Source: Psychrobacillus sp. NEAU-3TGS (lineage in GTDB: Bacteria; Bacillota; Bacilli; Bacillales_A; Planococcaceae). From it: a DNA stretch of 64,000 bases. The notes below the pieces were generated by a model that worked only from the letters and a program-made list of their open reading frames with translations, did not search any database and had not been told where the DNA came from. A program made the position numbers and the translations under genes. Of this stretch, positions 4,645 through 37,751 are shown one piece after another (the stretch's first letter is position 1; the number at the start of each line of letters is the position of its first letter). Location: positions 397,996 through 461,995 of the forward strand of contig NZ_JAPNOZ010000004.1 of NCBI RefSeq assembly GCF_029955155.1, given 5' to 3'.

Positions 4645-4785
4645 GAAACTTCAATCAGTGGGAGTCATCTCCCACTGATTGTTAGTTAAACCAAACGGGC
4701 TTTTACGGGCAGTTGATCTCCGACTTATCTTTTCGCTTTTCTCAAATTTTGAAGTGGGAGCCTTACTGCCCGTTAATGCGGGATA
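4645..4785 (+). repeat. Structured dispersed repeat, copy A (IS200/IS605-end-like)
   Basis: Begins 3 bp after the ccpA stop. It contains a 12-bp perfect hairpin (4653-4664 with 4669-4680). A second, nested structure follows: ACGGGCAGT pairs with ACTGCCCGT, enclosing CTCCGACTT against AAGTGGGAG. It ends in CCCGTTAATGCGGG. Copies occur at 37571-37751 (full) and 13795-13828 (3' end only). The palindromic ends resemble short non-autonomous IS200/IS605 derivatives or the right end carrying a TnpB guide-RNA scaffold. That attribution is from memory and unverified. Confidence 0.7.
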
Positions 4786-4786
4786 G

Positions 4787-4823
4787 AAAATCACCAGTAG
4801 CCAAAATGGTTACTGGTGATTTT
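4787..4823. terminator. Bidirectional terminator between ccpA and acuC
   Basis: 16-bp stem (4787-4802 with 4808-4823, one wobble pair), loop AAAAT, with A and T runs on either side. The acuC stop codon (4810-4812) lies in the right arm. It follows directly on repeat copy A. Confidence 0.85.
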
Positions 4824-5985
4824 TGTATGACTGCTGATTGCGAAGCGCGTATAGTGCTTTTTCGAGCATTTGTTTATTTTTCTCTGTTATTTCTGCTTTA
4901 CGTGGAATTGGTTCATACAATGGATTTGGATCCATCCAAGTCGGAATGAATGGAACTGGTGACTCTTTTGACCAACGATCGAGCCAAACTTTTGGTAAGT
5001 TGCCTTCAGGTGTTTTTATATCATTCATTTCCATCCAAAGAAGAGACCAAGCACGAGGAACGACACGCCAAATATCATACCCACCGCCACCAACAGCTAT
5101 CCATCTTCCGTCACAGTATTGATGTGCCAATTCATGGGCAAGTTTAGGAATTTCTCGGTAAATATTCATCGTTCCATATAAATGGGTTAATGGATCAAAA
5201 TAATGCGCATCTGCACCATTTTGGCTTAAAATAACATCAGGTTTGAATGCTTCTACAATTTCCCGAAGTGCTGTCCGATAAATTTCCAAAAAGGAGTCAT
5301 CCTCGGTAAAAGCATCTATCGGAAAGTTAAATGAAGTCCCGTATCCTTCACCAGTTCCTCTTTCGGTAATATTACCTGTGCCAGGGAATAAGTATCTGCC
5401 AGTTTCATGAATGGAAATAGTACATACATTGGGGTCATCATAAAAACTCCACTGTACACCATCCCCATGGTGCGCATCCGTGTCGATATAAAGAACACGT
5501 GCATTGTATTTTTGCTGCATATACTTAATAGCTACTGAACTATCATTATATACACAAAATCCTGAAGCACGTCCTTTAAATCCATGATGGAGCCCCCCAC
5601 CTATGTTGAGTGCATGCACAGATTTCCCTTCCATAACGTAATCCACTGCGGTTAGCGTACCCCCAACAAGACTTGCGCTCGCTTCGTGCATATGTGGGAA
5701 AATAGGGGTATCTTCCGTTCCGATACCATAGCTTTCATAATTGGTTGTTTCACTTTTCTCCAGGCTTGCTTTTTTGACGATTTCAATATACCCAGGATCA
5801 TGTACTAAACTTAATTCTTCATCTGTTGCAATGCGAGGTGCTACGATATCCGATGGTGATAAAGCATTCATTTCTTTTAAAAGATCGACTGTTAGAGTTA
5901 GGCGTTTTTGATTGAATGGATGCGTTTCTGAAAATTTATAGCCTAACTGGTCTTCAGAAAAGACAAACACAGCATTTTTTTTCAT
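4810..5985 (-). CDS. acuC: Acetoin utilisation protein AcuC, histone-deacetylase-family lysine deacetylase
   Basis: 391 aa. Zn-dependent protein deacetylase; in B. subtilis AcuC removes the acetyl group that AcuA puts on acetyl-CoA synthetase, reactivating it. HDAC signatures are clear: IGTEDTP, GGGLHHG, the metal site DTDAHHGDG, and C-terminal WIAVGGGGYDIWR. I take the start at ATG 5985 (MKKNAVFVFS), which matches the family N-terminus and overlaps the acuB stop as ATGA. An upstream in-frame ATG at 6012 would add nine residues inside acuB. Last gene of acuABC, co-transcribed on the minus strand. Confidence 0.92.
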   Translation of the reverse strand: MKKNAVFVFSEDQLGYKFSETHPFNQKRLTLTVDLLKEMNALSPSDIVAPRIATDEELSLVHDPGYIEIVKKASLEKSETTNYESYGIGTEDTPIFPHMHEASASLVGGTLTAVDYVMEGKSVHALNIGGGLHHGFKGRASGFCVYNDSSVAIKYMQQKYNARVLYIDTDAHHGDGVQWSFYDDPNVCTISIHETGRYLFPGTGNITERGTGEGYGTSFNFPIDAFTEDDSFLEIYRTALREIVEAFKPDVILSQNGADAHYFDPLTHLYGTMNIYREIPKLAHELAHQYCDGRWIAVGGGGYDIWRVVPRAWSLLWMEMNDIKTPEGNLPKVWLDRWSKESPVPFIPTWMDPNPLYEPIPRKAEITEKNKQMLEKALYALRNQQSYKNHQ

Positions 5986-6629
5986 AAAATTTTTCCCGGA
6001 TGATTTGGCCATAGTACTTCGAAGTCATCAGCTCGTAATGCTTCGATGAGTTTGAGTGGATTCATGGTTTTTACACGAAGCACTAAAATTTTATAATCTT
6101 CATTTGCTTTATCGGGATATACGAGTACGCTTAATACATTCACTTTTTGTTCATAAAAAACCTTCGAAACTTCAAACAATACACCTGTTTTGTTTGGAAC
6201 GCGAACTTCAATTTGAGAGCCTGGTTGATGTGAGCCCGTCAGTTCAATAAACTTATACAATAAGTCAGATTCCGTAATCATACCGACTAATTTTCCTTGT
6301 GAAACAATAGGTAAACAGCCTATCCGATTATCATAAAAAATAGTAGCTGTTTCTTCTAGAAAATCTAATGGATGGCCCACAATTGGATTTTTTGTCATTA
6401 TTTTTTCTAACGGTAATTCATACACTTCGGGGTTGTTACTGTTTAATAATGTAGATGGTGTTGCTTTCTTTAAATCGCGATCTGTTACTACTCCTAGTAT
6501 TTCTTTATTTGCGTTAATGATTGGTATATGGCGGATTCTTTTTGCTTTTAATAGCAATAATGCATCATTAATCGTATGTGTAGGTGTTAAAGTCGGTACC
6601 GATGTATTCATAATTTCTTCTACAAGCAT
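5982..6629 (-). CDS. acuB: AcuB, CBS-pair plus ACT domain protein
   Basis: 215 aa. Two N-terminal CBS repeats (roughly 1-55 and 75-130, with IRHIPIINANKEILGVVTDRD and IGCLPIVSQGKLVGMITESDL) precede an ACT-like domain (IEVRVPNKTGVLFEVS). Its biochemical role is unclear; CBS pairs usually sense adenine nucleotides, and it is always found with AcuA and AcuC. Two ATGs lie six bases apart. The downstream one (6629, MLVEEIM) is preferred because the AAGGGG site is better spaced and the product matches the family start; 6635 is the alternative. Translationally coupled to acuC. Confidence 0.88.
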   Translation of the reverse strand: MLVEEIMNTSVPTLTPTHTINDALLLLKAKRIRHIPIINANKEILGVVTDRDLKKATPSTLLNSNNPEVYELPLEKIMTKNPIVGHPLDFLEETATIFYDNRIGCLPIVSQGKLVGMITESDLLYKFIELTGSHQPGSQIEVRVPNKTGVLFEVSKVFYEQKVNVLSVLVYPDKANEDYKILVLRVKTMNPLKLIEALRADDFEVLWPNHPGKIL

Positions 6630-6664
6630 TTCCATACACCCCTTAGAAAAAATATAATTTTTAT

Positions 6665-7297
6665 CTAATACATAAACCGGTTCATAAATCGTAATTGATC
6701 GAATTGTTGAATGGATTCGTCGTTCACTCGACTGCCTATTTTAGCCATTAAACAATTAGCGGGATGCGAACTGATCTCGGGATCGTCCGTTGCAAAATAT
6801 TCAAGGCCGCCAGCTTGCATCATTTTCTCCATCACTTTACGGTACTCCCATACATTTAAACCAGTACCCTTTAAATCCCAATGCCAGTAATATTCCGTTG
6901 TAATAGTTATATAATCTTCCATTGCATCATCCATCATTGAAACGCGTAATAGTGTTTTACCAATACCAGTTCCGCGAAATTTTGGAATTATTTCAATTGC
7001 CCCTAATTCAATCAGGTTTTCCATTTTTCCTTGCGACCATCTTTCCAGTGGATCCGGATAAAGAAATGTACAATAACCAACGATAGTCTCTTGGTCTCGT
7101 ACAATAATAATTCTTCCTTCAGGCAATTTGGCAATTTCAATAATTGCTTTATGCTGCTGGGCAGGCGCCCGAAAGGCTACTAGATCTTCATGAAACGTTA
7201 AATCGGCTATTACATCTGAAGGAATCGGTCCTTCGACAATGACAGCACCATGTTTTGTTTCTATTTCCAACGCATTATACGTCTTTTCGTGTATCAC
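6665..7297 (-). CDS. acuA: Acetyltransferase AcuA (GNAT), regulator of acetyl-CoA synthetase
   Basis: 210 aa with the GTG start at 7297, the same length as I recall for B. subtilis AcuA. It acetylates the active-site lysine of AcsA to switch it off. The GNAT acetyl-CoA binding segment is visible as IEIIPKFRGTGIGKTLL (R/Q-x-x-G-x-G/A), followed by TTEYYWHWDLKG, a family-specific stretch, and SSHPANCLMAKIG. AGGTGGTG lies just before the GTG. A longer ATG-started frame from 7333 lacks a ribosome site. First gene of acuABC and divergent from acsA, its target. Confidence 0.92.
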   Translation of the reverse strand: MIHEKTYNALEIETKHGAVIVEGPIPSDVIADLTFHEDLVAFRAPAQQHKAIIEIAKLPEGRIIIVRDQETIVGYCTFLYPDPLERWSQGKMENLIELGAIEIIPKFRGTGIGKTLLRVSMMDDAMEDYITITTEYYWHWDLKGTGLNVWEYRKVMEKMMQAGGLEYFATDDPEISSHPANCLMAKIGSRVNDESIQQFDQLRFMNRFMY

Positions 7298-7481
7298 GAT
7301 TTCACCACCTATAAAAATAAACGCATTTAACACTATTATACATGATTTCTACAAAAAATAGATGGATGTATATGAAACGTAATGGAACATTCGTAAAAAT
7401 AAAAAGATTGGCAAAACTGTGAACAAGTATTGTAGAATAGAAGTGTATAGTTTTTGTATAGTTATAGAAAGGGTGAATAGG
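7298..7481. promoter_or_regulatory. Divergent control region between acuA and acsA
   Basis: 184 bp separating the acetylation operon from its target gene. A perfect -10 on the minus strand (TATAAT, plus coordinates 7335-7340) could serve acuA. On the plus strand TTGGCA (7408-7413) and TAGAAT (7433-7438) could serve acsA, though the 19-bp spacing is poor. I looked for a cre box and found only poor matches. Confidence 0.4.
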
Positions 7482-9203
7482 ATGAAGGTAGTTGAATTGT
7501 TACCAGTCGAACAAGGGGATTATCAGTTAAAGGATTATGAAGAAACAAAAAGAACTTTCAAGTGGGAAGATGCAGAAAAAAACTTTTCATGGTATGAAAC
7601 TGGAAAAGTAAATATGGCATACGAAGCCATTGATAGACATGCAGAGTCTGACAAGAAAGACAAAGTCGCACTATATTATCAAGATGCAGATAGAAAAGAA
7701 TCGTATACGTATTCAGATATGAAAAAGTGGACAAACAAAGCTGCAAATGTTTATAAGGAATATTCTAACTTAACAAAAGGTGATCGACTATTCATCTTTA
7801 TGCCGAGATCTCCAGAATTATATTTTTCACTTTTAGGTGCTGTTAAAAAAGGTGTGATTGTTGGACCTCTTTTCGAAGCATTTATGGAAGGAGCAGTATA
7901 CGACCGATTATTGGATAGTGAAGCAAAGGCAATTGTGACAACTCCTGAATTATTGGGAAGAGTACCTTTAGAAAAATTACCGAACTTAGAAACGGTATTT
8001 TTAGTAGGGGATAACATAGAGGAAACAGATAAGTTTATTGACTTTAACAAAGCATTACATAATGCTTCGGATGCTTTTGATATTGAGTGGGTAGATAAGG
8101 AAGATGGGTTGATCCTACACTATACATCAGGTTCCACAGGAAAACCAAAAGGAATTCTACATGTACACTATGCAATGGTTCAACAATATCAATCGATGAA
8201 ATGGGTTATGGATATTCGGGATGAGGATGTGTATTGGTGTACAGCTGACCCAGGCTGGGTAACTGGTACTTCTTATGGCATATTCGGACCTTGGTTAACA
8301 GGTGCTACATCACTTGTTCTTGGTGGTCGTTTTTCACCAGATGCATGGTATAATGCCATTGAAGATTACAAAGTAACAGTATGGTATAGTGCGCCTACTG
8401 CTTTCCGGATGCTGATGGGAGCAGGAGATGCTATCGTTGAAAAACACGATTTATCCTCTTTACGTCATATTTTATCCGTTGGAGAACCATTGAATCCAGA
8501 GGTGATAAAATGGGGAATGCAAGTGTTCCAATTACGCATACATGATACTTGGTGGATGACGGAAACAGGAGCTCAAATGATTTGTAATTTTGGGTGCCTA
8601 CCGATTAAGCCAGGATCTATGGGGAAACCACTTCCAGGATTAGAAGCAGCGATCATTGATAATCAAGGAAATATTGTTCCACCATTCACGATGGGCAATT
8701 TAGGAATTAAAAAAGGCTGGCCTTCGATGATGCGTCAAATTTGGAATAATAAAGAGAAATATGAGTCTAGCTTTATGAATGATGAATGGTATTTTTCGGG
8801 AGATTCTGCTTATATGGATGACGAAGGATACTTTTGGTTCCAAGGTAGAGTAGATGATGTTATTATGACTTCCGGGGAACGTGTAGGACCATTTGAAGTA
8901 GAGAGTAAACTACTGGAGCATCCTGCTATTTTAGAGGCAGGCGTAATTGGTAAACCGGACCCTGTACGCGGTGAAATTATTAAAGCATTTGTTGCGTTAA
9001 ATGAAGGGTATAAGCCTTCCGATGAACTAATTGCGGATATTCAGCAGTTTGTGAAAAAAGGACTCGCTGCACATGCAGCGCCAAGAGAAATTGAATTTAA
9101 AGATAAGCTCCCGAAAACAAGAAGCGGTAAAATTATGCGCCGAGTTTTAAAGGCTTGGGAGTTAAAATTGCCAACTGGCGATTTATCTACGATGGAAGAT
9201 TAA
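7482..9203 (+). CDS. acsA: Acetyl-CoA synthetase (AMP-forming)
   Basis: 573 aa with the ATG at 7482. Activates acetate via acetyl-AMP to acetyl-CoA. Adenylate-forming signatures: P-loop YTSGSTGKPKG, the WWMTETGAQ substrate/ATP motif, YFWFQGRVDDVIMTSG, and the C-terminal KTRSGKIMRR, whose Lys is the catalytic residue acetylated by AcuA. Start chosen for GAAAGGGTG upstream and for agreement with the ~572-aa B. subtilis enzyme; an upstream in-frame codon at 7419 would add 21 residues without a ribosome site. Divergent from acuABC, consistent with the known acetylation circuit. Confidence 0.94.
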   Translation: MKVVELLPVEQGDYQLKDYEETKRTFKWEDAEKNFSWYETGKVNMAYEAIDRHAESDKKDKVALYYQDADRKESYTYSDMKKWTNKAANVYKEYSNLTKGDRLFIFMPRSPELYFSLLGAVKKGVIVGPLFEAFMEGAVYDRLLDSEAKAIVTTPELLGRVPLEKLPNLETVFLVGDNIEETDKFIDFNKALHNASDAFDIEWVDKEDGLILHYTSGSTGKPKGILHVHYAMVQQYQSMKWVMDIRDEDVYWCTADPGWVTGTSYGIFGPWLTGATSLVLGGRFSPDAWYNAIEDYKVTVWYSAPTAFRMLMGAGDAIVEKHDLSSLRHILSVGEPLNPEVIKWGMQVFQLRIHDTWWMTETGAQMICNFGCLPIKPGSMGKPLPGLEAAIIDNQGNIVPPFTMGNLGIKKGWPSMMRQIWNNKEKYESSFMNDEWYFSGDSAYMDDEGYFWFQGRVDDVIMTSGERVGPFEVESKLLEHPAILEAGVIGKPDPVRGEIIKAFVALNEGYKPSDELIADIQQFVKKGLAAHAAPREIEFKDKLPKTRSGKIMRRVLKAWELKLPTGDLSTMED

Positions 9204-9213
9204 TATATAACGA

Positions 9214-9254
9214 AAAGCCACAGCAACCAAGTTTAGGTTGTTGTGGCTTTATTT
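9214..9254. terminator. Terminator shared by acsA and the convergent PBP gene
   Basis: 15-bp stem (9214-9228 with 9236-9250, one wobble pair) followed by TTTATTTT. It lies between two convergent genes. Confidence 0.82.
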
Positions 9255-9256
9255 TA

Positions 9257-12175
9257 TTATCTTCTTGCAGTTGTAGTATCTACTTCTTCGGCTGGTTCTT
9301 CTTCAACAGGAGGAGTAATTATTTCTTCTTCTTCTTCTGTCGTGTCATCCTCTCCATTTTCTGGAGCTGTTGGAGGCACGACTGGTTCTGTTGGTGTTTC
9401 AGGTTGTTGAACTTCTAGTGATACAATATTGGAAGCGCCTGATTGTAAACCAGTAATGTCTACAGATACAATAATATATTGACCAGGACCGCTAATTGTA
9501 TGACTAGGAGATTCGGCTTCCGCTTTAGTTGCCATTAGCATTCTTTGTCCATCCACCACTTGGTACACACGATAACCAACAACGTCTGAAGACGCTGATT
9601 TGGACCAAGTAATGGTGTTTCCAGATATCGTAGCATTTACCGCTGAAGGTGGGCTACCATCTGCATTAAATACTTCTTCTGAAACAACATTTCCACCAAA
9701 ACTAGAATTCTCTGGGAACAGCTTACTAGCATTCCCACCAAATCTTCCAAGCATTCGTGTGATAAAGTCTTGGTTTACACCATAGCCTCCTTGCACAACA
9801 AATTCCCTTGGAGTAGCATCCAATGCGCGATATCTATTGCCGTTTATCACCACATAAGAAGAGGAGATTAGACTATCATCTGCTGCGGTTGGTAACATAG
9901 CAGCAGCGTTAAACAAATCGGATTTAACTAATCCTGCTTGTGCACATGCATCGGAAGGAGCTAGTCCAGAAATTCCACAGAAAGATCTTGTAACTACACC
10001 TTCAGGAACTTGGAAAGCGTTTGGTGCATCGATTAGTTCTGGTGACACATCATACATAGCATTCATCATATTAGACCACAGCATATTGACTCGTACACTA
10101 GGATGATTATAGCGATTATTCATATAAAATAAAGATTTTGTATTATCATCGTAACCAAGCCATACACCTAAAGAGATATTTGGATTATAACCGACGAGCC
10201 ATGAGTCATTATGATTTTGGGTTGTTCCTGTTTTAGCAGCGAAATCGGACTGGAATTTAAGTCGTGAATTTGCTAACTTCGCAGTACCACCGGATAATAC
10301 GTCACGCATCATATCAGTAATAATATAAGCGGTTGCTGGACTAAAGACTTGCACTGGCTCGATTTCATGTTGATAAATAACTTTTCCATCCACGCTTTCA
10401 ATCTTTTCGATCATATAGGCGTCGATAAATTGACCATTATTAGCAAAAGTACCAAATGCATTTGTATTTTCTTCCACTGTAGCACCGTTTGTCATCCCGC
10501 CTATAGAAAGCGCATGGTTTGCATATTCATTTTCTTCAATATGTTCAAATCCCATTTTTAACAAGAAATCAGTTGGTTTTCGATCCATAATTAAATCATA
10601 TAATCGAATCGTCGATAAGTTTTGGGAAGTCATCAGTGAACTACGTGCTGAAATAATCCCTTTTTCTTGTGCAATCGTGTAGTTAGCTGGTGATTTAGCC
10701 CAAGTCGTCCCTTTTAGGTTGTCCAGTTTAATATCCACAACTGGGCTTCCGGCACCAATGACTCCATATTCAATTGCAGGTGCATATACAAGTAAAGGCT
10801 TCATCGTTGACCCAATTGGTCTTACCCCTTGTGTAGCATGATTATATTGTTCTAAATTATAATCGCGTCCACCAAGGAACGATAGAATTTTCCCGGTGTT
10901 ATTTTCAATTAGCATACTCCCAACTTGAGCAGGGAAATCTTTTGTAACGATCTCGCCGGTATTTGGATCTTTTACTTCTTTCGTATACGTATGTCCATAG
11001 TATTCGAATTCATCTTTTACTTTTAACATCGCTTCAAACATGTCTCTATTAATCGTTGTATGGATGCGATATCCATCTGTTCGAATAGAGCGTTCAGCCA
11101 TTATATTATATTTCTCTAATAATTTAGGTTCTTTTGCTAGTCTTTCCGGGTCAATTCCATCTGCACTAGCTAATTGGACTCTTAAAATCTCTTTTACCCG
11201 GTTTTCTACTTCTGCTGTTAGCCATGGATATTTCTCTTCTGCTACCACTTCAGGCTCTCTAAAATCTTGAGTAATATCATAATTTACTGCAGAATCATAT
11301 TCTGCTTGCGAAATATAACCTGTTTCTTTCATACGGAAAAGCACTGTCTTCATACGCTCGATACCGGCTTGCAGTGCTTCACCCTCTTTTTTTTCTCCAC
11401 CTTGTCTAAAAGGTGTGTAGGCAAATGGAGCTTGTGGAATACCGGCAATATAGGCGGCTTGTGGCAATGTAAGATCTTTTGCTTTTACATTGAAGATACC
11501 GTTTGCAGCTGTTTCAATTCCTGCAATATTTCTTCCGTTTGCATTTCGTCCGTATGGAATGATATTTAAATACGCTTCTAAGACTTCCTCTTTTGTCATG
11601 AAATGTTCTAAACGCATAGCCAAGAGGATTTCTTTAGCTTTTCGTTCGTACGACACTTCGTTTGTTAGAATCTGGTTTTTTATTAACTGTTGCGTCAAAG
11701 TAGAGCCACCAGTTTGTGTATCCGAATTTGTAACGTCTTGAAGCAAACCACGGAAAATTGCTTTCGGTACAATTCCATTATGTACTTCAAAGTATTCATC
11801 TTCTGTCGCCAGTACCGCATCAATAACATATGGAGAAACGGCAGCAAGCTTCGTTTCCGTACGTTCAAGATCCGTTCTTAGCTTTCCTAAATAGACATTT
11901 TCTGCAAAATATATTTCAGACGTTTCTTCATAATTAAACACATCCGCTCTCATATCTTCTTTAGCTCGAAGTGGTTCTTCTTTCACTAAAGAAGCAAAAT
12001 AACCGGCACCTACGGAAGCTGCAAATACTCCGAGCGCAAGGAATGTGACCAAGAATATTAAGCACAAGTTCCATATAACACTAGAAGAAATTCGCAATCC
12101 TTTCGCCCATTTAGTAGTTTGCCACTCATTCATTTTCTCTGTATAAAAGTGGATTTTTTCCATCCATTTTTTCAT
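9257..12175 (-). CDS. Class A penicillin-binding protein (transglycosylase/transpeptidase) with FN3-like and acidic tail
   Basis: 972 aa bifunctional peptidoglycan synthase. An N-terminal cytoplasmic segment and one transmembrane helix (~28-60) precede a GT51 glycosyltransferase domain (EDEYFEVHNG 125-134; GGSTLTQQL 156-164). The transpeptidase domain has SxxK as STMK at 456-459, SxN as SQN at 517-519, and KTG at 648-650. Residues ~825-910 look like an FN3 domain; the last ~55 are Pro/Glu/Thr-rich, probably a wall-spanning linker. Which B. subtilis PBP it matches (PBP1, 2c, 2d, 4) cannot be settled by eye. Convergent with acsA and divergent from the tyrS leader. Confidence 0.9.
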   Translation of the reverse strand: MKKWMEKIHFYTEKMNEWQTTKWAKGLRISSSVIWNLCLIFLVTFLALGVFAASVGAGYFASLVKEEPLRAKEDMRADVFNYEETSEIYFAENVYLGKLRTDLERTETKLAAVSPYVIDAVLATEDEYFEVHNGIVPKAIFRGLLQDVTNSDTQTGGSTLTQQLIKNQILTNEVSYERKAKEILLAMRLEHFMTKEEVLEAYLNIIPYGRNANGRNIAGIETAANGIFNVKAKDLTLPQAAYIAGIPQAPFAYTPFRQGGEKKEGEALQAGIERMKTVLFRMKETGYISQAEYDSAVNYDITQDFREPEVVAEEKYPWLTAEVENRVKEILRVQLASADGIDPERLAKEPKLLEKYNIMAERSIRTDGYRIHTTINRDMFEAMLKVKDEFEYYGHTYTKEVKDPNTGEIVTKDFPAQVGSMLIENNTGKILSFLGGRDYNLEQYNHATQGVRPIGSTMKPLLVYAPAIEYGVIGAGSPVVDIKLDNLKGTTWAKSPANYTIAQEKGIISARSSLMTSQNLSTIRLYDLIMDRKPTDFLLKMGFEHIEENEYANHALSIGGMTNGATVEENTNAFGTFANNGQFIDAYMIEKIESVDGKVIYQHEIEPVQVFSPATAYIITDMMRDVLSGGTAKLANSRLKFQSDFAAKTGTTQNHNDSWLVGYNPNISLGVWLGYDDNTKSLFYMNNRYNHPSVRVNMLWSNMMNAMYDVSPELIDAPNAFQVPEGVVTRSFCGISGLAPSDACAQAGLVKSDLFNAAAMLPTAADDSLISSSYVVINGNRYRALDATPREFVVQGGYGVNQDFITRMLGRFGGNASKLFPENSSFGGNVVSEEVFNADGSPPSAVNATISGNTITWSKSASSDVVGYRVYQVVDGQRMLMATKAEAESPSHTISGPGQYIIVSVDITGLQSGASNIVSLEVQQPETPTEPVVPPTAPENGEDDTTEEEEEIITPPVEEEPAEEVDTTTARR

Positions 12176-12239
12176 TTATTATTCGACCCCCAAATCAAGA
12201 ATTATTATACCATAATCGCTCATCTGTAAACGATAGATA

Positions 12240-12267
12240 TTGACATACGGATTAAATTAGGTAAAAT
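12240..12267 (+). promoter_or_regulatory. Predicted SigA promoter of the tyrS T-box transcript
   Basis: Perfect TTGACA (12240-12245), 16-bp spacer, TAAAAT (12262-12267). TATAAT at 12273-12278 is an alternative -10 but has no well-placed -35. The T-box leader starts just downstream. Confidence 0.55.
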
Positions 12268-12278
12268 AGGTATATAAT

Positions 12279-13791
<1,513 letters not shown>

Positions 13792-13794
13792 ATT

Positions 13795-13828
13795 AAGTGG
13801 GAATCCTATGGCCCGTTAATGCGGGATA
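13795..13828 (+). repeat. Structured dispersed repeat, copy C (3' end only)
   Basis: Starts 3 bp after the tyrS stop. It matches only the last ~34 bases of copies A and B (AAGTGGGA...GCCCGTTAATGCGGGATA), with a few substitutions. Like the others it sits between a stop codon and the gene's terminator. It is either a decayed copy or a minimal form of the element. Confidence 0.6.
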
Positions 13829-13833
13829 AAATG

Positions 13834-13871: not shown

Positions 13872-13890
13872 ACCAAAAAGAGTATATTGG

Positions 13891-28207: not shown

Positions 28208-28285
28208 TATTTATTTTAACGATTTATGAAACATTTGAATTTTTTTTACGTAAGTAAAGAGAGAACAAAAGGAGGAGAATATAAA

Positions 28286-29299: not shown

Positions 29300-29311
29300 G
29301 GAGGGGTCTAA

Positions 29312-29893: not shown

Positions 29894-29929
29894 TAAGATG
29901 AAGATAATGAAAAAGGAGGCTACATAATT

Positions 29930-30436
29930 ATGGCTCAAGTAACATTTAAAAACAATCCAGTAACTTTAGTTGGTCAAGAAGTAGTAGTTGGAGAGAAAGC
30001 ACCAAACTTTACGGTGTTAGCAAATGATTTATCACCAGTAACGCTACAAGATTCTGCAGGTAAAGTACGTTTAATCAGTGTAGTCCCATCGTTAGATACA
30101 GGTGTTTGTTCAACGCAAACTAACAAATTCAATCAAGCTGCTGCTAGTTTAGGTGATGATGTGGTGATTTTAACAATCTCTGCGGACTTACCATTTGCAC
30201 AAGCACGTTGGTGCGGAGCAAACGCTGCGGACGCTATTCAAACACTTTCTGATCACCGCGATTTTTCATTCGCAGAAGCGTTTGGAGTTGGTATGAAGGA
30301 ATTACGTTTACTAGCTCGTTCTGTATTCGTAGTGGACAAAAATGATGTTGTTACTTATGCGGAATATGTTAGCGAAGGAACAAATCATCCAGACTATGAT
30401 AAAGCATTAGAAGCAGTAAAAGAAGCAACAAAATAA
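29930..30436 (+). CDS. tpx: Thiol peroxidase (atypical 2-Cys peroxiredoxin)
   Basis: 168 aa. Reduces H2O2 and organic peroxides using thioredoxin. Peroxidatic Cys60 in LDTGVCSTQT and resolving Cys95 in RWCGA are both present, with the Thr57 of the active site. AAAAAGGAGG precedes the ATG. Neighbouring ytxK follows after a large hairpin, as in B. subtilis. Confidence 0.96.
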   Translation: MAQVTFKNNPVTLVGQEVVVGEKAPNFTVLANDLSPVTLQDSAGKVRLISVVPSLDTGVCSTQTNKFNQAAASLGDDVVILTISADLPFAQARWCGANAADAIQTLSDHRDFSFAEAFGVGMKELRLLARSVFVVDKNDVVTYAEYVSEGTNHPDYDKALEAVKEATK

Positions 30437-30445
30437 TAAAAAAAC

Positions 30446-30533
30446 AAACCCACTTATTCCATCAATTTTGTCTTGGACAAAGAATTAGCAGGGAGCTTAA
30501 GCTCCCTGCTAATTCTAGTTTAGTGGGTTTTAT
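30446..30533 (+). terminator. Nested terminator between tpx and ytxK with an 18-bp perfect palindrome
   Basis: 30481-30516 is a perfect 36-nt palindrome (18-bp arms, no separate loop). It is nested within an outer pair: AAACCCACT (30446-30454) with AGTGGGTTT (30522-30530), followed by TATTT. The outer arm ends only 16 bp before the ytxK start, so its ribosome site lies immediately after the structure. Confidence 0.75.
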
Positions 30534-30548
30534 TTGAGGGATGTATAT

Positions 30549-31478
30549 ATGCACACAAATGTAGAACAAATTTTTACGTTTATCGATCAAGAAAGCACCT
30601 TTATAGAAGAACAAGAATCAGCTACTTATTTAGAAGGGGTAGTATACGCATTAGAATTGTGGTTAGAACAGAAAAAAGTACCTGCAATAACTAATCCAAC
30701 AAAAGAACAAATTCGAAAAGCGATTCAATTGGCGATTTTAAAAGGAATGAAAGCAAGTTCTCAAGTAAATCATCAAATGACACCAGATGCCATTGGACTG
30801 TTAGTAAGTTATTTTGTCCAAGTAGTAGCAAAGGACAAGAAAGAATTGTCAATTTTGGATGCCGCGTTTGGAACGGGAAATTTACTATATACCGTAATGA
30901 ATGCATTACCTTTTGAGAATCATGCTTACGGTGTAGAAATCGATGAACTATTAATCCAACTGGCAGCTCAAACTGGAGAATTGCTTAATCATGATATTCA
31001 GCTATTCCGTCAAGATGCCTTAAAACCATTATTAATTGATCCCGTCGATATAGTTGTAAGTGATCTACCTGTTGGGTATTATCCAGATGCTGAAACAGCA
31101 CAGGACTATTTTTTGCATAGTACAGAGGAAATGTCTTATGCACATCATTTATTCATCGAACAATCGATGAAGCATGTAAAACCAGGTGGATACTTGTACT
31201 TTTTAGTGCCAAACACTATCTTTGAATCTAAGCAAGCGCCACAGCTTCATAAGTTTATTAAGGAGAACGGATGGATTCAAGCGGTCATTCAATTCCCAAC
31301 TTCGATTTTTAAAACGAAAGGGCAAGAGAAAAGCTTGTTGATTTTGCAAAAGAAAAGCGAAGAATTGAAAGCCCCACGTGAAGTATTACTTGCAAAAGTT
31401 CCGAATATGACCAATAAAGAAGCGATGGAATTGTTTTTCCAAAAAGTGGACATATGGCAAGAAGAAAATGCAAAATAA
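30549..31478 (+). CDS. ytxK: YtxK, N6-adenine-type methyltransferase-like protein
   Basis: 309 aa from ATG 30549, after GAGGG at 8-nt spacing; TTG 30534 in frame is less likely. An N-terminal helical domain is followed by a class I SAM-methyltransferase fold: motif I LDAAFGTGNLL, acidic loop YGVEIDELLIQ, and at motif IV SDLPVGYY in place of the NPPY of DNA N6-adenine methylases. Bacillales YtxK proteins generally look like type I/IIG HsdM relatives without partner subunits. Substrate unknown. In B. subtilis ackA comes next; it is absent here. Confidence 0.8.
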   Translation: MHTNVEQIFTFIDQESTFIEEQESATYLEGVVYALELWLEQKKVPAITNPTKEQIRKAIQLAILKGMKASSQVNHQMTPDAIGLLVSYFVQVVAKDKKELSILDAAFGTGNLLYTVMNALPFENHAYGVEIDELLIQLAAQTGELLNHDIQLFRQDALKPLLIDPVDIVVSDLPVGYYPDAETAQDYFLHSTEEMSYAHHLFIEQSMKHVKPGGYLYFLVPNTIFESKQAPQLHKFIKENGWIQAVIQFPTSIFKTKGQEKSLLILQKKSEELKAPREVLLAKVPNMTNKEAMELFFQKVDIWQEENAK

Positions 31479-31481
31479 GAG

Positions 31482-31504
31482 GGTAGCCCTAAAGCAGGGC
31501 TACC
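31482..31504. terminator. Hairpin between convergent ytxK and uspA
   Basis: GGTAGCCCT (31482-31490) pairs perfectly with AGGGCTACC (31496-31504). There is no long T tract on either side, so it is a weak or incomplete terminator. Confidence 0.5.
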
Positions 31505-31547
31505 TTCTAGCTAATTACGAGTATTTAAAATGTTTGACGTGCTTTTC

Positions 31548-32000
31548 TTAGTCTGGAATTTCTTCCGTACGAACAACCAGTACGTCACATGTTGCAGACC
31601 GTACAATGTACTCAGAAACACTTCCGATTAAAAATCTTTCCATAGCATTAAGACCAGTAGCACCACAAATGATTAAATCTGCTACTACTTTTTTAGCAAG
31701 GTCTTTAGAGATCATCGTTTTAGGAGAACCATATTCAACGATGATATTTACATGTTGAACTCCGCCTGCCTGTGCCTCTGTTTTATAACCTTCTAACAAT
31801 TCTTCTGCAAATGATTGTGCCCGCTCAGCTATAGAACGGTCATAAGCTTCGATGGCAGCAAACGATCTTGTATCAATAATATTAACGAGATTTAATGTCG
31901 CACTGTTTCTTGCTGCGATAGAAACTGACTTTTTAAATGCGTATTCCGCTTCTTTTGAACCGTCTACAGCAACTAGAATTTGTTTATATTTTAATGACAT
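31548..32000 (-). CDS. Universal stress protein UspA family
   Basis: 150 aa single Usp domain. The ATP-binding signature G-2x-G-9x-GS is intact (GATGLNAMERFLIGSVSEYI), preceded by ADLIICG and followed by CDVLVVRT; the N-terminal strand ILVAVDGSKEA is typical. AAGGAGG precedes the ATG. Function of individual Usp proteins is unclear. It occupies the place of ackA in the B. subtilis order. A single-gene unit. Confidence 0.92.
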   Translation of the reverse strand: MSLKYKQILVAVDGSKEAEYAFKKSVSIAARNSATLNLVNIIDTRSFAAIEAYDRSIAERAQSFAEELLEGYKTEAQAGGVQHVNIIVEYGSPKTMISKDLAKKVVADLIICGATGLNAMERFLIGSVSEYIVRSATCDVLVVRTEEIPD

Positions 32001-32378
32001 AATAAAAACCTCCTTATTCTTTATACATATATATTTCGATATTTATTGACATATTCCTGCTTACTTTCATTATTTAATTTTTCGTCAAGTGAACTTAACG
32101 AGTTCTACACCATTACATGGTACTTATCCCTTGGAGATGATGGATTAATTATTCCTGTCTAAGCGTACCAAAAATTAACAAGTGTATAATGAGTTTCTAG
32201 AGCGTTTAATGTGAAATTTTAGTGGTATAATTTAGATAATATAAGTTCGTACTTATATAATTTAAATTATTGAAGCATTATGAATATAGAAATGATAGAA
32301 TGGAATTGTCGAAAGTGATTTATTTGGCTTGTCGAATCATTTATTCAACAATATCGGATTACATAGGGGGATATAGAA
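32001..32378. other. 378-bp intergenic control region between uspA and ald
   Basis: No gene seen. On the plus strand there is TATAAT (32226-32231) without a clear -35 and a short inverted repeat (TATAAGT/ACTTATA, 32240-32257). An 8-bp direct repeat TTGTCGAA occurs at 32306-32313 and 32329-32336, 23 bp apart, ahead of ald. The direct repeat could be a regulator site. Confidence 0.4.
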
Positions 32379-33494
32379 ATGCGAATTGGAATTCCGAAAG
32401 AAACGAAAAACAATGAAAACCGTGTGGCAATGACGCCGGCTGGGGTAGTAAGTTTCACGCATTATAATCATGAAGTATATATTGAAACAGGAGCAGGATT
32501 AGGATCTAGTTTCACCGATCAGGATTATATAGACGCAGGGGCAACCATTGTTCAAACAGCGCAAGAGGCTTGGAACCAAGAAATGGTTATGAAAGTAAAA
32601 GAACCTACACATGCTGAGTTTGATCTTATACGAGAAGAATCTATTCTCTTTACTTATTTACATTTAGCGCCTGAAGATGATTTAACAAGAGTACTTCTAG
32701 AAAAGAAAGTAACTGCTATAGCATACGAAACGGTTCAGCTTCCTAATAATACTCTTCCATTACTGTCACCAATGAGCGAAGTAGCAGGACGTATGTCAAC
32801 TCAAATTGGTGCTCAATATTTAGAACAAATTAATGGTGGTAAAGGAATCTTACTTGGTGGGGTGCCAGGTGTTCCTCGAGCGAAGGTAGCTGTAGTAGGA
32901 GGCGGAATTGCTGGTACAAACGCAGCTAGAGTTGCGTTAGGAATGGGTGCACAAGTGACAATTATTGACCTTAATCCTGATCGTCTTCGTCAATTGGAAG
33001 ATTTGTTTGGTAGCCAAGTACAAACTTTAATCTCTAATCCGTATAATATCGGAGAAGCGGTAAAAGAGGCAGATTTAGTCATTGGCGCAGTTCTTATTCC
33101 AGGAGCAAAAGCACCGAAGCTTGTTTCTGAGGAAATGATTAAATCTATGTCTCCGGGTTCTGTAGTGATTGATATTGCTATTGACCAAGGTGGTATTTTC
33201 GAAACTTCTGACCGTATTACAACACATGATAATCCAACATATGAAAAGCATGGGGTAGTACATTACGCTGTTGCGAATATGCCAGGAGCAGTTCCTAGAA
33301 CATCTACAATGGCTTTGATCAATGCAACAGTACCTTATGCGCTTCAAATAGCAAATAAAGGCTATAAGCAAGCTTGTTTGGATAACCTTGCATTACAAAA
33401 AGGTATTAACACACTAGCAGGTCATGTAACATTTAAAGCAGTTGCTGAAGCACAAGGATTACCTTATGTTGATGTTGCAACTCTTTTGAATTAA
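32379..33494 (+). CDS. ald: Alanine dehydrogenase
   Basis: 371 aa. NAD-dependent reversible deamination of L-alanine to pyruvate, important for alanine use and sporulation in B. subtilis. Family start [20 protein letters not shown] with the substrate residues of that motif, active-site region YLHLAPE, and Rossmann motif [31 protein letters not shown] precedes the ATG. Long upstream region consistent with regulated expression (AdeR in B. subtilis). Confidence 0.97.
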
Positions 33495-33508
33495 TAGTAG
33501 GACATACT

Positions 33509-33543
33509 ATCACCCAACTCTGTTTAAAGATTTGGGTGATTTC
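33509..33543 (+). terminator. Weak hairpin after ald
   Basis: ATCACCCA (33509-33516) pairs with TGGGTGAT (33533-33540), followed by TTCTAATTTT. A plausible but weak terminator. Confidence 0.5.
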
Positions 33544-33573
33544 TAATTTTGTGGCAAGATGGAGTGGGTGCAA

Positions 33574-33930
33574 TTGATTTATTTATATATTGGTTTAGCT
33601 GGAGCTTTAGGGGCCATTTCACGTTATTTAGTAGGAATCTTCTTTTATACAAGTTCATCCTTTCCGTTCGCAACATTATTCGTGAATCTAGTTGGTTGTT
33701 ATGTATTAGCTTATTTAAGTTCTAGAATCACTAATTTTTCAATTAAGTTGAAGACTGTAATTGGTACAGGTTTTATAGGTTCTTTTACTACCTTTTCTAC
33801 TTTAAGTGTAGAAACTATCCACTTATTTGAGCAAGGAGAAGTGTTGCTTGCTTTTGTGTATATTCTTGTAAGTATAGTCGGTGGTATTTTCATGAGTAAT
33901 TTAGGTTGGAAAAAAGAGGTGGTCGAATGA
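33574..33930 (+). CDS. crcB: Fluoride channel subunit CrcB/FluC (first of pair)
   Basis: 118 aa from TTG 33574, with GGAG (33561-33564) at 9-nt spacing; ATG 33559 in the same frame lacks a ribosome site. Four transmembrane helices and the Fluc signatures GALGAISRYLVG, TLFVNLVGCYVLAYL and the F-box GTGFIGSFTTFSTLS. Fluc channels are dual-topology dimers exporting F-. When two adjacent genes exist, each usually has fixed opposite topology and they form a heterodimer. Its TGA overlaps the next ATG. Confidence 0.9.
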   Translation: MIYLYIGLAGALGAISRYLVGIFFYTSSSFPFATLFVNLVGCYVLAYLSSRITNFSIKLKTVIGTGFIGSFTTFSTLSVETIHLFEQGEVLLAFVYILVSIVGGIFMSNLGWKKEVVE

Positions 33931-34280
33931 ATGTCTATTATATTCTTGCTGTAGGAGCTGGAGGTTTTTTAGGTGCAATCACTAGATATTATACCTCTCA
34001 GAAGTTGAACAAAACGAAAGAAGATCGTTTACCTCTTGGAACACTTGCAGTTAATCTGATTGGATCTTTTCTCCTTGGGTTCATTTTGAGTGTAGGATTA
34101 AAGGATATTTATACTTTGTTAATTGGAACTGGCTTTCTAGGAGCTTTTACCACTTTTTCTACACTTCATAAAGAGCTGCTCATCCTTCAAAAGTATCCTC
34201 GAAAGTGGTTAATATATTTTGTTATTACTTACAGTGGGGGATTAGTGTTTGCATTTTTAGGATATTTGTTAGGAAAGTAA
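33927..34280 (+). CDS. crcB: Fluoride channel subunit CrcB/FluC (second of pair)
   Basis: 117 aa. Start ATG 33927 overlaps the previous stop as ATGA, with AAGAGGTGG upstream; an earlier in-frame codon at 33906 is unneeded. Signatures GGFLGAITRYY, GTLAVNLIGSFLLGF and GTGFLGAFTTFSTL are intact, so both subunits look functional. I looked for a fluoride (crcB) riboswitch before the pair and did not find one. Confidence 0.9.
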   Translation: MNVYYILAVGAGGFLGAITRYYTSQKLNKTKEDRLPLGTLAVNLIGSFLLGFILSVGLKDIYTLLIGTGFLGAFTTFSTLHKELLILQKYPRKWLIYFVITYSGGLVFAFLGYLLGK

Positions 34281-34306
34281 AAAGCACCCATGGAAGAGTG
34301 CTTTTT
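34279..34306. terminator. Bidirectional terminator between crcB and pepQ
   Basis: AAAAGCAC (34280-34287) pairs with GTGCTTTT (34298-34305), with A and T runs on both sides; it lies between convergent genes. Confidence 0.75.
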
Positions 34307-34308
34307 CA

Positions 34309-35403
34309 TCAAGAAATTATTTGTAATTTTTTCGGGAACTTTGTTAAAACTTCTACGCCGTCTGCTGTTACAACAACGTCATCTTCAATGCGAACACCTG
34401 TTATTTCTGGGTGGTAAATACCAGGTTCAATCGTAAATACCATACCAGTTTCTAATTTCATCTCATTGACACCTGTAATAGATGGGAATTCATGTACAGA
34501 AATTCCAAGCCCATGTCCTAAACGATGAGTGAAATACTCTCCATAGCCTGCGTCTGTAATGACATCCCGAGCTATTTTATCCAGTTCCATCGCAGTAATT
34601 CCTGGTTTTACAGCTTGTACAGCAGCTTCTTCTGCTCGTAGAACTGTTTCATAAATTTCTCGTTTATCAGCTGTTGGTTCACCAAAAGCAACTGTGCGTG
34701 TGATATCTGAGCAATAACCATTATAAACTACTCCAAGATCGAATAAGATAAAGTCGCCTTTTTGAATTTTACGCTCTCCAGGTGTACCATGTGGAGAAGC
34801 AGTTTTTGGTCCGCTTAATACCATTGTATCGAAAGACATTTGAGCAGCGCCTTTTTCTTTCACAGCTAGTTCGATTGCGTTTAATATTTCTAACTCCGTT
34901 TTACCTTCTGCAATTTCTTTACATCCAACTTCAATTGCGAAATCAGCAAGTTCAGCAGCCTTGCGCATATTTTCTAATTCCTCTTCGGACTTTATCACAC
35001 GAAGATCGTTTATTTTCTCATCAATTCTAGAAACTTGTAAGTTGGGAATTCTTTCGATTAAAGCTTCTAATCTTTCTACTGTTAAATGGGCTTTTTCAAC
35101 TGCTAGCGTTGTAATATCTTCTGCTTTTTCTTTCATTGTTTGGACAACAATATCCCATGCGTTATCTGTATCTTGATGTCCAACAATTTGACCTTTCCAG
35201 CCGGAAGCTTTTGCATCTGGGATTTCCATTTGCGGACAAATGATAAACGGCTCTGCTTCTTTAAAAATAGCGACACCAAGTAGTCGTTCATGCGGATTAC
35301 TGCGGAAACCAGTAAAGTAAAATACGTTATCAGGAGTGGTAATGAAGGCTGCTTCCATATTGTTTGTTTGTAAAAAGTTTTGGATTTTTTCGACTTGATT
35401 CAT
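34309..35403 (-). CDS. Xaa-Pro dipeptidase / aminopeptidase P family metallopeptidase
   Basis: 364 aa (M24B). Cleaves the bond before proline in small peptides. N-terminal creatinase-like domain (FYFTGFRSNPHERL), then the pita-bread fold with dinuclear metal ligands: Asp in FDLGVVYNGYCSD and ITRTVAFG, His in HRLGHGLGISVHE, Glu in FTIEPGIY and RIEDDVVVT. Start ATG 35403 after AAGAGGTGTT; the frame is open to 35475 but that extension has no ribosome site. The B. subtilis YkvY/YqhT-type proteins are the closest kind. Confidence 0.9.
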   Translation of the reverse strand: MNQVEKIQNFLQTNNMEAAFITTPDNVFYFTGFRSNPHERLLGVAIFKEAEPFIICPQMEIPDAKASGWKGQIVGHQDTDNAWDIVVQTMKEKAEDITTLAVEKAHLTVERLEALIERIPNLQVSRIDEKINDLRVIKSEEELENMRKAAELADFAIEVGCKEIAEGKTELEILNAIELAVKEKGAAQMSFDTMVLSGPKTASPHGTPGERKIQKGDFILFDLGVVYNGYCSDITRTVAFGEPTADKREIYETVLRAEEAAVQAVKPGITAMELDKIARDVITDAGYGEYFTHRLGHGLGISVHEFPSITGVNEMKLETGMVFTIEPGIYHPEITGVRIEDDVVVTADGVEVLTKFPKKLQIIS

Positions 35404-35515
35404 ACTAACACCTCTTTTATATTTATAAATTAAGGATAGCAGAATAAAGGAATTATCGCATCTACGTAGAATCAATACTTAAGAAGTATAATAATTTTTA
35501 AGGAGAGATGACAAC

Positions 35516-36205
35516 ATGAATATCAGTTATCATGGACATTCAGTAGTAAAAATTCAAACAAATACACATACAATATTAATTGATCCTTTTATAAATGGAA
35601 ATGGACAAACTGATTTAGAGGTTTCGGAAGTAACGGCTGATGTCATTCTATTGACACATGGACATAATGATCATGTAGGGGATACTGTTGAGATTGCGAA
35701 AAGAAGCGATGCGTTAGTAGTTGCACCGTTTGAGCTTGCAGAGTTTATAGAATCTCAAGGTGTTAAAGTGCATGCAATGGGGATAGGTGGTTCCAGAGAA
35801 TTTGAATTTGGTACAGTAAAATTTACACAAGCATTCCATAGCTCCTCATATACGAAGGAAGATGGTCAATCCGTTTATACTGGAATGCCTGCTGGAATAC
35901 TACTTACAGTAGAGGGAGCGACAATCTATCATGCAGGGGATACCTCTTTGTTTGGAGATATGAAGTTAATCGGTGATAGAAATAACATTAAAGTTGCTTT
36001 CCTACCTATTGGAGATAATTTCACAATGGGGCCAGAGGATGCTGCCTATGCTGTGGAATTATTAAAACCAGAAATAGTTGTACCAATTCACTACAATACT
36101 TTCCCACCAATTAAACAGGATCCAAATAAATTCAAGGAACTAGTAAAATCAGCGGAAGTTCAAGTTTTAAATGCAGGAGACAGCGTACAACTGTCACGTG
36201 ATTAG
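35516..36205 (+). CDS. ytkL: Metal-dependent hydrolase YtkL (UPF0173, beta-lactamase fold)
   Basis: 229 aa. Metallo-beta-lactamase fold with HGHNDHVGD (HxHxDH), a later His in AFHSSS, Asp in YHAGDTSLF and His in [10 protein letters not shown]. Physiological substrate unknown. AAGGAGAGATGACAAC precedes the ATG. It precedes ytoI as in B. subtilis. Confidence 0.9.
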
Positions 36206-36260
36206 AAAAAAAGGAAAATGTGGTACAATAAACGTATAACAAGCGTTTGGATGTGACTAC

Positions 36261-37568
36261 ATGACGACAAAACACGAACAAATATTAGCGTATATAGAAA
36301 AACTGCCAGTTGGAGATAAAATATCGGTTAGGCAAATTGCAAAAGACTTAATAGTTAGTGAAGGAACTGCCTATCGTGCCATAAAAGAAGCGGAAACTAG
36401 AAGGCTAGTTAGTACAATTGAACGAGTAGGAACTATACGAATAGAGTTAAAGAAAAAAGAGCACTTTGAACGGCTAACTTTCGCAGAAGTTGTAAATATT
36501 GTAGATGGACAAGTATTAGGTGGTAAAACGGGTCTTTATAAAACGTTGAACAAATTTGTAATAGGTGCCATGCAATTAGAAGATATGATGCGATACGTAG
36601 AGCCTGGTAATTTACTCATTGTTGGAAACCGCTTAAAGGTTCATGAAACGGCACTACAGGCAGGAGCGGCAATACTTGTAACAGGGGGCTTTGATGTTCC
36701 AGAGCCTACAAAGAAACTAGCTGATGAATTTGAATTGCCGGTTATCTCAACAAGTTATGACTCATTTACGGTTGCAACGATGATTAATCGTGCAATTGAT
36801 GACCAATTGATCAAAAAAGACGTACTGCTTATTGAGGATATTTATATTCCTTTAGAAAAAACATCATTTCTACGTACTACCGATCATGTAAAGCAATATC
36901 GAGAATTGAATGATGAAACCACACATGGAGGATTTCCAGTGGTGGATAAAGCCAATAAATTAGTTGGAATTGTCACAGCTAGAGATGTAATTGGAAAAGA
37001 AAATCATGAACTAATAGAAAAAGTTATGACGAGAACACCAATATCTATTACGATGAAAACAAGTGTAGCCTCGGCAAGTCACCGGATGATTTGGGAAGGA
37101 ATCGATTTGTTGCCAGTTGTTGGCGATAACAACAACCTAGAAGGGGTTATCAGCAGACAGGACGTATTAAAAGCCTTGCAAGCAGCGTCTAGGCAACCTC
37201 AAAACGGAGAAACTATTGATGATATTGTGAAACAACAAATAAAAGCAATTTCATCAGAGGAATTTATCTTTGAATTTGAAGTAACCCCTCAAATGACCGA
37301 TCATTTTGGTGCTATGTCTTACGGAGCATTTACGATACTAGTCACGGAGACAGGATCTCAAACGTTGAAAATTCGAAAACGTGGAGAAAGTGTTGTCGAG
37401 AATATGACGATTTATTATACGAAGCCAATCCAATTAGAGAGTATACTTCGAGTACATGCTCGCGTTTTAGAAATGAGTAGAAAAGTGGCAAAAATGGATC
37501 TAGAAGTTTTCAACGAAAAACAATTAGTAGGAAAAGCAATGGTTACGTATCAGTTATTGGAGAGATAA
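36261..37568 (+). CDS. ytoI: YtoI, winged HTH - DRTGG - CBS pair - hotdog thioesterase fusion
   Basis: 435 aa multidomain protein. Residues 1-65 are a GntR/MarR-like winged helix (VRQIAKDLIVSEGTAYRAIKEAE), ~75-185 a DRTGG domain (GNRLKVHETALQAGAAILVTGG), ~195-315 two CBS repeats (GFPVVDKANKLVGIVTARDVIG), and ~325-435 a hotdog domain (DHFGAMSYGAFTILVTE). The order suggests a nucleotide-sensing transcription factor with an acyl-thioester-binding end, but its role is not established. The ribosome site is weak (TTGGATGTGA). Repeat copy B starts directly after the stop. Confidence 0.88.
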   Translation: MTTKHEQILAYIEKLPVGDKISVRQIAKDLIVSEGTAYRAIKEAETRRLVSTIERVGTIRIELKKKEHFERLTFAEVVNIVDGQVLGGKTGLYKTLNKFVIGAMQLEDMMRYVEPGNLLIVGNRLKVHETALQAGAAILVTGGFDVPEPTKKLADEFELPVISTSYDSFTVATMINRAIDDQLIKKDVLLIEDIYIPLEKTSFLRTTDHVKQYRELNDETTHGGFPVVDKANKLVGIVTARDVIGKENHELIEKVMTRTPISITMKTSVASASHRMIWEGIDLLPVVGDNNNLEGVISRQDVLKALQAASRQPQNGETIDDIVKQQIKAISSEEFIFEFEVTPQMTDHFGAMSYGAFTILVTETGSQTLKIRKRGESVVENMTIYYTKPIQLESILRVHARVLEMSRKVAKMDLEVFNEKQLVGKAMVTYQLLER

Positions 37569-37570
37569 AG

Positions 37571-37751
37571 TGAAACTTCAATCAGCGGGAGGTCTTCATC
37601 CTCCACTGATTGTTAGTTGTGTCGCACACGATGTTGCGTACTTAGTCTGGGATCATTCCATCGGGCGCATGCCAGCAGTTGATCTCCCACTTATCTTTTC
37701 TTTTTTCTTCAATCTTGAAGTGGGAGTCTTACTGCCCGTTAATGCGGGATA
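37571..37751 (+). repeat. Structured dispersed repeat, copy B (full length)
   Basis: 181 bp starting 2 bp after the ytoI stop. Same ends as copy A: GAAACTTCAATCAG hairpin at the left and TACTGCCCGTTAATGCGGGATA at the right. Between them CTCCCACTT pairs with AAGTGGGAG (9 bp). About 40 bp more central sequence than copy A. A short open frame across it is fortuitous. Confidence 0.75.

Follow-up and report, generated by a model that had tools for sequence, protein, structure and literature searches.

The 64,000-nucleotide (nt) stretch of the Psychrobacillus sp. NEAU-3TGS genome analysed here (assembly GCF_029955155.1, contig NZ_JAPNOZ010000004.1, positions 397,996 to 461,995; hereafter the window) carries three copies of a hairpin-rich repeat, situated behind ccpA, tyrS and a YtoI/SpxR-like gene with DRTGG, CBS and hotdog domains that we take to be ytoI (Table 1). 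The presence of these copies, two long and one reduced to a remnant, had been recognised in an earlier note on this DNA, and the constant end that they share indeed matches the window three times, where chance alone would give 0.05 matches. In all three cases, the stop codon of the preceding gene is the TAA of the ATAAA pentamer at the left edge of the repeat. The element thus lies directly behind a stop codon because the TAA of its target is that stop codon, and the three copies run in the sense direction of their genes because the pentamer must be on the gene strand to provide it. Our results suggest that the repeat is probably a non-autonomous miniature element of the insertion sequence (IS) type IS200/IS605, which contains no gene and inserts at TTTAT, the complement of ATAAA. 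Whereas the earlier note read it along the gene strand, on which it runs ATAAA...ATAAA, the orientation that corresponds to the insertion sequences (IS orientation) appears, judging from the sequence, to be the opposite one, with the element reverse-complemented and TTTAT at its edges.

Table 1. Features of the element copies in the window and the transposase gene considered in the text. Positions refer to the window unless a locus is named; strands of the element are given in IS orientation.
Feature	Position	Strand	Remark
Copy 1, canonical short form	4638..4787	-	150 nt including both pentamers; antisense to ccpA; sister-species empty site
Copy 1, left flank	4638..4642	+	ATAAA; TAA at 4639-4641 is the ccpA stop codon
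Copy 1, perfect 13-bp hairpin	4652..4681	.	right end in IS orientation
Copy 1, nested hairpin	4699..4779	.	28-nt arms, 75% complementarity; left end in IS orientation, like the left ends of TnpB-bearing IS
Copy 1, right flank	4783..4787	+	ATAGA, same as the empty site in the closest relative (G006)
Copy 2, remnant	13788..13830	-	43 nt; constant end and the two ATAAA flanks retained, interior missing
Copy 2, TAA	13789-13791		tyrS stop
Copy 3	37565..37753	-	189 nt; internal module shortened
Copy 3, TAA	37566-37568		stop of the YtoI/SpxR-like gene
Copy 3, internal-module remnant	37620..37660	-	limits approximate, set by eye against longer copies
Y1 transposase gene, REP-associated-like, the only one in the genome	L061 1468-2058	+	69.1 bits, model cut-off 80

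The family extends well beyond the window. The 4.42-Mb host genome contains not three but at least 41 element places, comprising at least 40 BLAST places that include the constant-end side (40 of 53 candidates were scored) and the remnant behind tyrS. A survey of copy structure covering 40 of these 41 loci (L066 left out) yielded 34 full copies and two without a far end; one further scan of the 41 places left out L018, L062, L065 and L066. On the strand used in the earlier note, full copies read ATAAA-GTGAAACTTCAATCAG...GGCAGT...AGTGGGAGTCTTACTGCCCGTTAATGCGGG-ATAAA. In IS orientation, they begin with TTTAT, continue as CCCGCATTAACGGGCAGTAAGACTCCCACTT...AAGTGGGAG...ACTGCCC, and end with the right hairpin and ...GTTTCAC TTTAT, so that an imperfect nested left-end hairpin, a spacer and a right-end hairpin follow each other between the two pentamers. 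The left ATAAA is present in 32 and the right ATAAA in 26 of the 34 full copies. Canonical copies measure ~150 nt, with shorter forms and longer ones of up to ~320 nt (full range ~140-320 nt); cores of ~50 nt, which look like internal deletions, occur in other genera.

While each end of the element bears a subterminal hairpin, no inverted repeat joins the two termini in copies 1 and 3. The left hairpin and nested right structure described in the earlier note are borne out by covariation. When 33 copies measuring 138-172 nt, left after the removal of similar sequences, are aligned and the structure is drawn from the copy at L002, 91.3% of the cells are paired and 18 of 30 pairs show double changes, a level reached by none of 500 shuffled alignments. 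Wobble cells are split evenly (30 G-T versus 31 A-C), favouring neither strand, and the folding strength is likewise high on both (z of -5.8 on the strand of the earlier note and -6.6 on the other). A small CCCG/CGGG hairpin overlapping the outer stem hardly varies and thus gives no covariation signal, and the element ends match no Rfam family over threshold. Close to one of the copies, there is a match to a preQ1 riboswitch (L002 2268-2314, minus strand).

Comparison with related genomes indicates that the element is mobile. Behind ccpA, it is missing from all 18 other genomes of the genus, and in P. lasiicapitis (G006), G010 and G012 the stop codon leads directly into the same downstream hairpin. 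Thirteen further sites were checked in three relatives, and 11 of them gave an empty-site alignment spanning the junction in at least one relative, nine with a single ATAAA where our genome carries the element; the junction at L016 is a 75% alignment, the relative of L028 has TTAAC, and some relatives show dissimilar pentamers elsewhere. The ytoI site (L025) was scored as empty in G006 but really contains a 54-nt remnant of a shared insertion, exemplifying sites that are filled in both sister species with altered content (189 nt in our genome as opposed to 54 nt in P. lasiicapitis). In the latter species (L298), head-to-tail copies share a common ATAAA. At the ccpA site, it is the right flank, ATAGA, that agrees with the empty site of the sister species, and the left flank does not. 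In IS605-type transposition, one pentamer belongs to the host and the other to the element, and the ccpA flanks seem to fit this rule when read in IS orientation. The flank that equals the sister's site is the left one at L067, L019 and L063, and the right one at L029.

The exact 18-nt core of the element is found in 11 of 61 genomes searched, including ten of the 19 genomes of the genus (our own counted), with up to 51 matches per genome, and inexact copies occur in further genomes (e.g. G016). Outside the genus, an exact 23-nt pattern retrieved at least 117 stretches; the genera among the matches listed include Lysinibacillus, Domibacillus, Peribacillus, Cytobacillus, Neobacillus, Sporosarcina, Filibacter, Priestia, Terrilactibacillus, Rummeliibacillus and Gottfriedia. 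Since the exact right-flank pattern served to pick the named loci used below, it also predetermines their right pentamer. A 54-nt form from an assembly attributed to an actinobacterium, Modestobacter sp. (4.6-kb contig; L086 782-804), perhaps reflects Bacillales contamination of that assembly. A weak two-piece match on a Klebsiella grimontii plasmid (CP079755.1 221561-221652; 80%, E 0.04) could be due to chance, contamination or transfer, which are not told apart. One element query against phage records returned no match; in viral contigs, the right-end pattern matched once and the left-end pattern not at all. Strings of the element sequence had no match in the open-licence full-text literature, and within that literature the family is undescribed.

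A likely link to a known type of transposon is provided by the constant end. A profile of this end, built from 116 of 146 copies after removal of near-duplicates, gave 24 places at E<=1 in 60 TnpB loci, compared to none in either of two controls of comparable size, 151,620 control bases and the reversed TnpB loci. Eighteen of these places were taken as left ends, most of them upstream of a tnpB open reading frame (ORF) and in the same direction; the remaining six have other positions, in some cases at the hairpin that follows tnpB. Of the 18 left ends, 15 have TTTAT in the 26 nt that precede the core, as opposed to a background of 5%, and 13 have TTTATC at 18-19 nt from the core. In the direction of tnpB, these left ends read TTTATC...CCGACAGAAGACTCCCACTTCAAGG...AAGTGGGAGATGAATGTCGG, and the element, reverse-complemented for comparison, reads TTTATCCCGCATTAACGGGCAGTAAGACTCCCACTTCAAG...AAGTGGGAGATCAACTGCCCG. 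The one tnpB gene of these loci that was checked encodes a clear IS200/IS605 TnpB. The likeness is to elements that contain only TnpB, none with TnpA, and it holds for the left ends as a set, with single matches being weak. Insertion after the same pentamer is reported for group A IStrons, in which an intron is combined with an IS and whose targets are given as TTGAT, ATTAT or TTTAT (PMC4227781).

It is the lack of terminal inverted repeats, the strict pentamer flank, the subterminal hairpins, the empty sites and the left-end resemblance that make an IS200/IS605-type miniature element the probable interpretation. They also lend weight to the target choice of this type proposed in the earlier note, albeit with the polarity reversed. 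Several observations nevertheless speak against it. The best single left-end match only reaches an E value of 0.002, and the TnpB loci are not all independent, because some share a genome or represent near-identical elements. Moreover, the flank of our element is ~4-5 nt farther from the core than in the TnpB left ends, and nothing comparable to its right end can be seen at the right ends of those TnpB elements. As to the tnpA or tnpB gene with the same ends that the earlier note suggested looking for, the resemblance concerns one end only, and an autonomous element bearing both did not turn up. Among 125 ends in the named loci, 23 have no recognised far end, one pair is ~1.3 kb apart, which we take as chance, and the rest span less than 400 nt. 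No IS605-type TnpA was found in the host genome, whose sole Y1 protein resembles those associated with repetitive extragenic palindromes (REPs). The gene for this protein is present in 18 of the 19 genomes of the genus whatever their number of element copies, which speaks against it as an explanation of copy number. Finally, the flanks at ccpA conflict with those at L067, L019 and L063 as to whether the element carries its own ATAAA or duplicates its target, although later mutation or excision could account for either pattern.

If the element does belong to the IS200/IS605 type, it would be moved by a Y1 HUH transposase in a single-strand "peel and paste" reaction, with the enzyme being supplied in trans; this enzyme may still act, may have acted in the past or may be gone. 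An insertion at a terminal ATAAA would leave the gene, its stop codon and the downstream hairpin intact, as the element would bring or copy an ATAAA and thereby keep the stop. Hairpin repeats contained in the longer forms would be amplified along with it.

The relationship to stop codons, which the earlier note had proposed to assess genome-wide, turned out to be more complex than the window suggests. The TAA of ATAAA is a stop codon in ten of the 34 full copies of our genome and in 21 of the 113 named copies, and the remaining copies lie elsewhere, including placements scored as coding (six of 34 and 20 of 113, respectively), some of them probably on spurious ORFs. Most copies are thus not located behind a stop codon, yet there is a clear excess at such positions. 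Comparing copies to unused sites, the ratio at stop codons is 10:8, versus 18:184 at other non-coding ATAAA sites, in our genome (odds ratio 12.8, p = 5e-6) and 21:61 versus 72:1277 in the named set (odds ratio 6.1, p = 1e-8). The excess persists against neighbouring sites, i.e. same-strand ATAAA up to 100 nt downstream of a stop codon, with 10:8 versus 2:26 (odds ratio 16, p = 4.5e-4) and 21:61 versus 14:176 (odds ratio 4.3, p = 1e-4), respectively. In these comparisons, the background excludes the left flanks of the elements themselves and genes are plain ORF calls (>=80 aa, greedy); the two sets are partly dependent, with nine of the 113 named copies (three of the 21 at stops) stemming from P. 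lasiicapitis and L104 representing the same ytoI site. The sense direction noted for the three window copies does not hold overall: with respect to the surrounding genes, the copies point either way about equally often (16 of 34 and 57 of 113 are co-oriented), without any general gene-strand bias. With respect to guanine-cytosine skew, the named subsets lean in opposite directions, with 35 of 92 for copies away from stops (p = 0.028) and 16 of 21 for those located at a stop (p = 0.027), and the corresponding values for our genome (7 of 24 and 8 of 10) are not significant. Base tables inspected by eye revealed no extended target consensus around ATAAA that could explain the stop codons.

The excess at stop codons is thus real and not fully explained. 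The local part of it suggests that a terminal ATAAA is the best-tolerated place of insertion and that selection acts after insertion, since such a site, at which the gene, its stop codon and the downstream hairpin survive, would be the least costly one. With insertions as old as these, target choice may have contributed as well. It is distinctly unlikely, if tempting to speculate, that the transposition machinery, or the DNA bared behind the last ribosome, prefers TAA-A sites in use as stop codons; if true, a single-strand transposon would read gene ends, with its own ATAAA replacing the stop codon it displaces. The ccpA gene ends with TAA in our genome and with TAG in the closest relative. 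As for the proximity of the copies to terminators, visual inspection shows a terminator-like hairpin 3' of each window copy, but the one behind the ytoI-like gene lacks a long T run, and a consensus terminator scan at two of the copies did not list the downstream hairpins. Scans inside the elements gave a single weak match, to the left hairpin of copy 3, and none in copy 1. At ccpA, the closest relatives, whose sites are empty, also have the hairpin starting no more than ~5 nt from the stop codon, so that this distance belongs to the host. Upstream of tyrS, the window also contains a T-box leader (12276-12476, plus strand).

The longer copies carry nested hairpins of the Rfam family Bacillaceae-1 (RF01690) in their interior. 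A scan of 20 loci of our genome gave 27 matches to this family in 17 of them, all in the IS orientation of the element. The module remnant of copy 3 has a counterpart with such hairpins in longer copies and itself has no Rfam match. Bacillaceae-1 matches at E<=0.001 are present in all 19 genomes of the genus and exceed the cut-off in 18, including genomes that lack the exact core. With 150 candidates scored per genome, the counts are lower bounds and amount to at least 59 in our genome and from 1 to at least 149 in the others; this dispersal and the high numbers argue for RF01690 being a repeat, mobile or palindromic, and not a single small RNA gene. One free-standing match outside the element lies in the window (47781-47847, minus strand). 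The strand of Bacillaceae-1 is reported to have been uncertain to its discoverers; for the reverse strand, a role in binding CsrA has been proposed (PMC4333381). Its occurrence here as a passenger and dispersed repeat calls for caution with regard to this proposal.

The earlier note also considered that the repeat is a selected RNA module of 3' untranslated regions (UTRs). Such a module would be a stabiliser or regulator kept at stop codons for the benefit of the upstream gene. The strong folding and the excess over nearby ATAAA sites would agree with this idea, but 24 of the 34 full copies are not at stops, their orientation is even, wobble pairs show no strand preference, the ends lack an Rfam family and the ccpA copy is private to our genome among the 19. 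We therefore regard such a role as quite improbable. Even less can be said for a stand-alone guide RNA scaffold of TnpB or a Cas12-like nuclease, which we consider extremely improbable. Kinship with TnpB-bearing IS and the similarity of one hairpin to a stem that TnpB elements have close to their right end are in its favour, and G006, the genome richest in copies, is outside the TnpB count. However, our genome contains no TnpB, and among 17 genomes of the genus (the 19 less G006 and G011) only G010 has one, which lacks the exact 18-nt core; likewise, six of 20 named carrier genomes are devoid of TnpB. Importantly, the scaffold of a TnpB omega-RNA is located at the right end, with the guide beyond it, whereas the resembling end of our element is the left one. 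The end that the earlier note envisaged as a scaffold 3' end running into the terminator thus has the wrong polarity.

An alternative source of mobility would be the resident Y1 transposase (L061), acting on a REP- or REPIN-like repeat. It is the only Y1 protein of the genome and REP-associated-like, and the nested Bacillaceae-1 modules are palindromic high-copy repeats. This scenario is unlikely, though, given that the protein does not reach the curated REP-transposase cut-off (Table 1) and that no copy of the element is found in the ~3-kb loci around 27 Y1 matches of the genus or in 12 kb around our own. The only match near Y1 genes comprises 27 nt and concerns part of the module, and an Rfam scan of 20 of the 27 loci gave one Bacillaceae-1 match, with none in 3 kb around the L061 gene. 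In addition, the 5-nt target and the two-ended architecture are IS-like. A somewhat better, if still doubtful, alternative is that our element represents the same ~150-bp, TTTAT-flanked family as bcr1, a MITE-like repeat (resembling miniature inverted-repeat transposable elements) of ~155 bp that is specific to the Bacillus cereus group. As described, bcr1 matches in its TTTAT motif, its average of 39 copies per strain, its MITE-like nature and its frequent location in UTRs (PMC6542083, PMC3446304). However, none of the plasmids that element queries listed from 72,556 plasmid records belongs to the B. cereus group, although bcr1 has been reported on plasmids, and no species name of this group appears among the at least 117 matches listed, several of which are unplaced "Bacillus sp.".

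Collectively, our findings explain why hairpin repeats of this genome are lodged between a stop codon and the hairpin downstream of it, and warn against taking such 3'-UTR hairpins for regulatory RNAs. They probably connect TTTAT-targeting IS200/IS605 elements with a MITE-like family that occurs under the names of many Bacillales genera, reveal that an Rfam "RNA" family travels inside the element and turn the excess at stop codons into a testable question on the target choice of single-strand transposons. The element is probably a cousin of a well-known kind of mobile DNA, new as a family, rather than a new RNA guide. With REP elements, it has in common that it consists of hairpin DNA and that the genome encodes an enzyme of the Y1 family, but it is two-ended, 140-320 nt long and strict in its 5-nt target, whereas a REP is a palindrome of 20-40 nt. 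Bacillaceae-1 hairpins form internal modules of its longer copies, yet they are also found outside of it and in genomes of the genus without the exact core. The likeness to bcr1, the nearest lead in the literature, compared by description only, comprises the MITE-like organisation, the TTTAT motif, the dozens of copies and the partial location in UTRs; bcr1 is published as specific to the B. cereus group, whereas the present family is found under many other Bacillales genus names. Also close are the TnpB-only IS200/IS605-type elements of relatives, presumably IS1341-like, which share the nested left-end hairpin, the core GAAGACTCCCACTTCAAG...AAGTGGGAGATGAA and the TTTATC flank. Our element differs from them in that it lacks a gene, has an extra CCCG/CGGG stretch beside the flank and possesses a dissimilar right end, which itself terminates in TTTAT.

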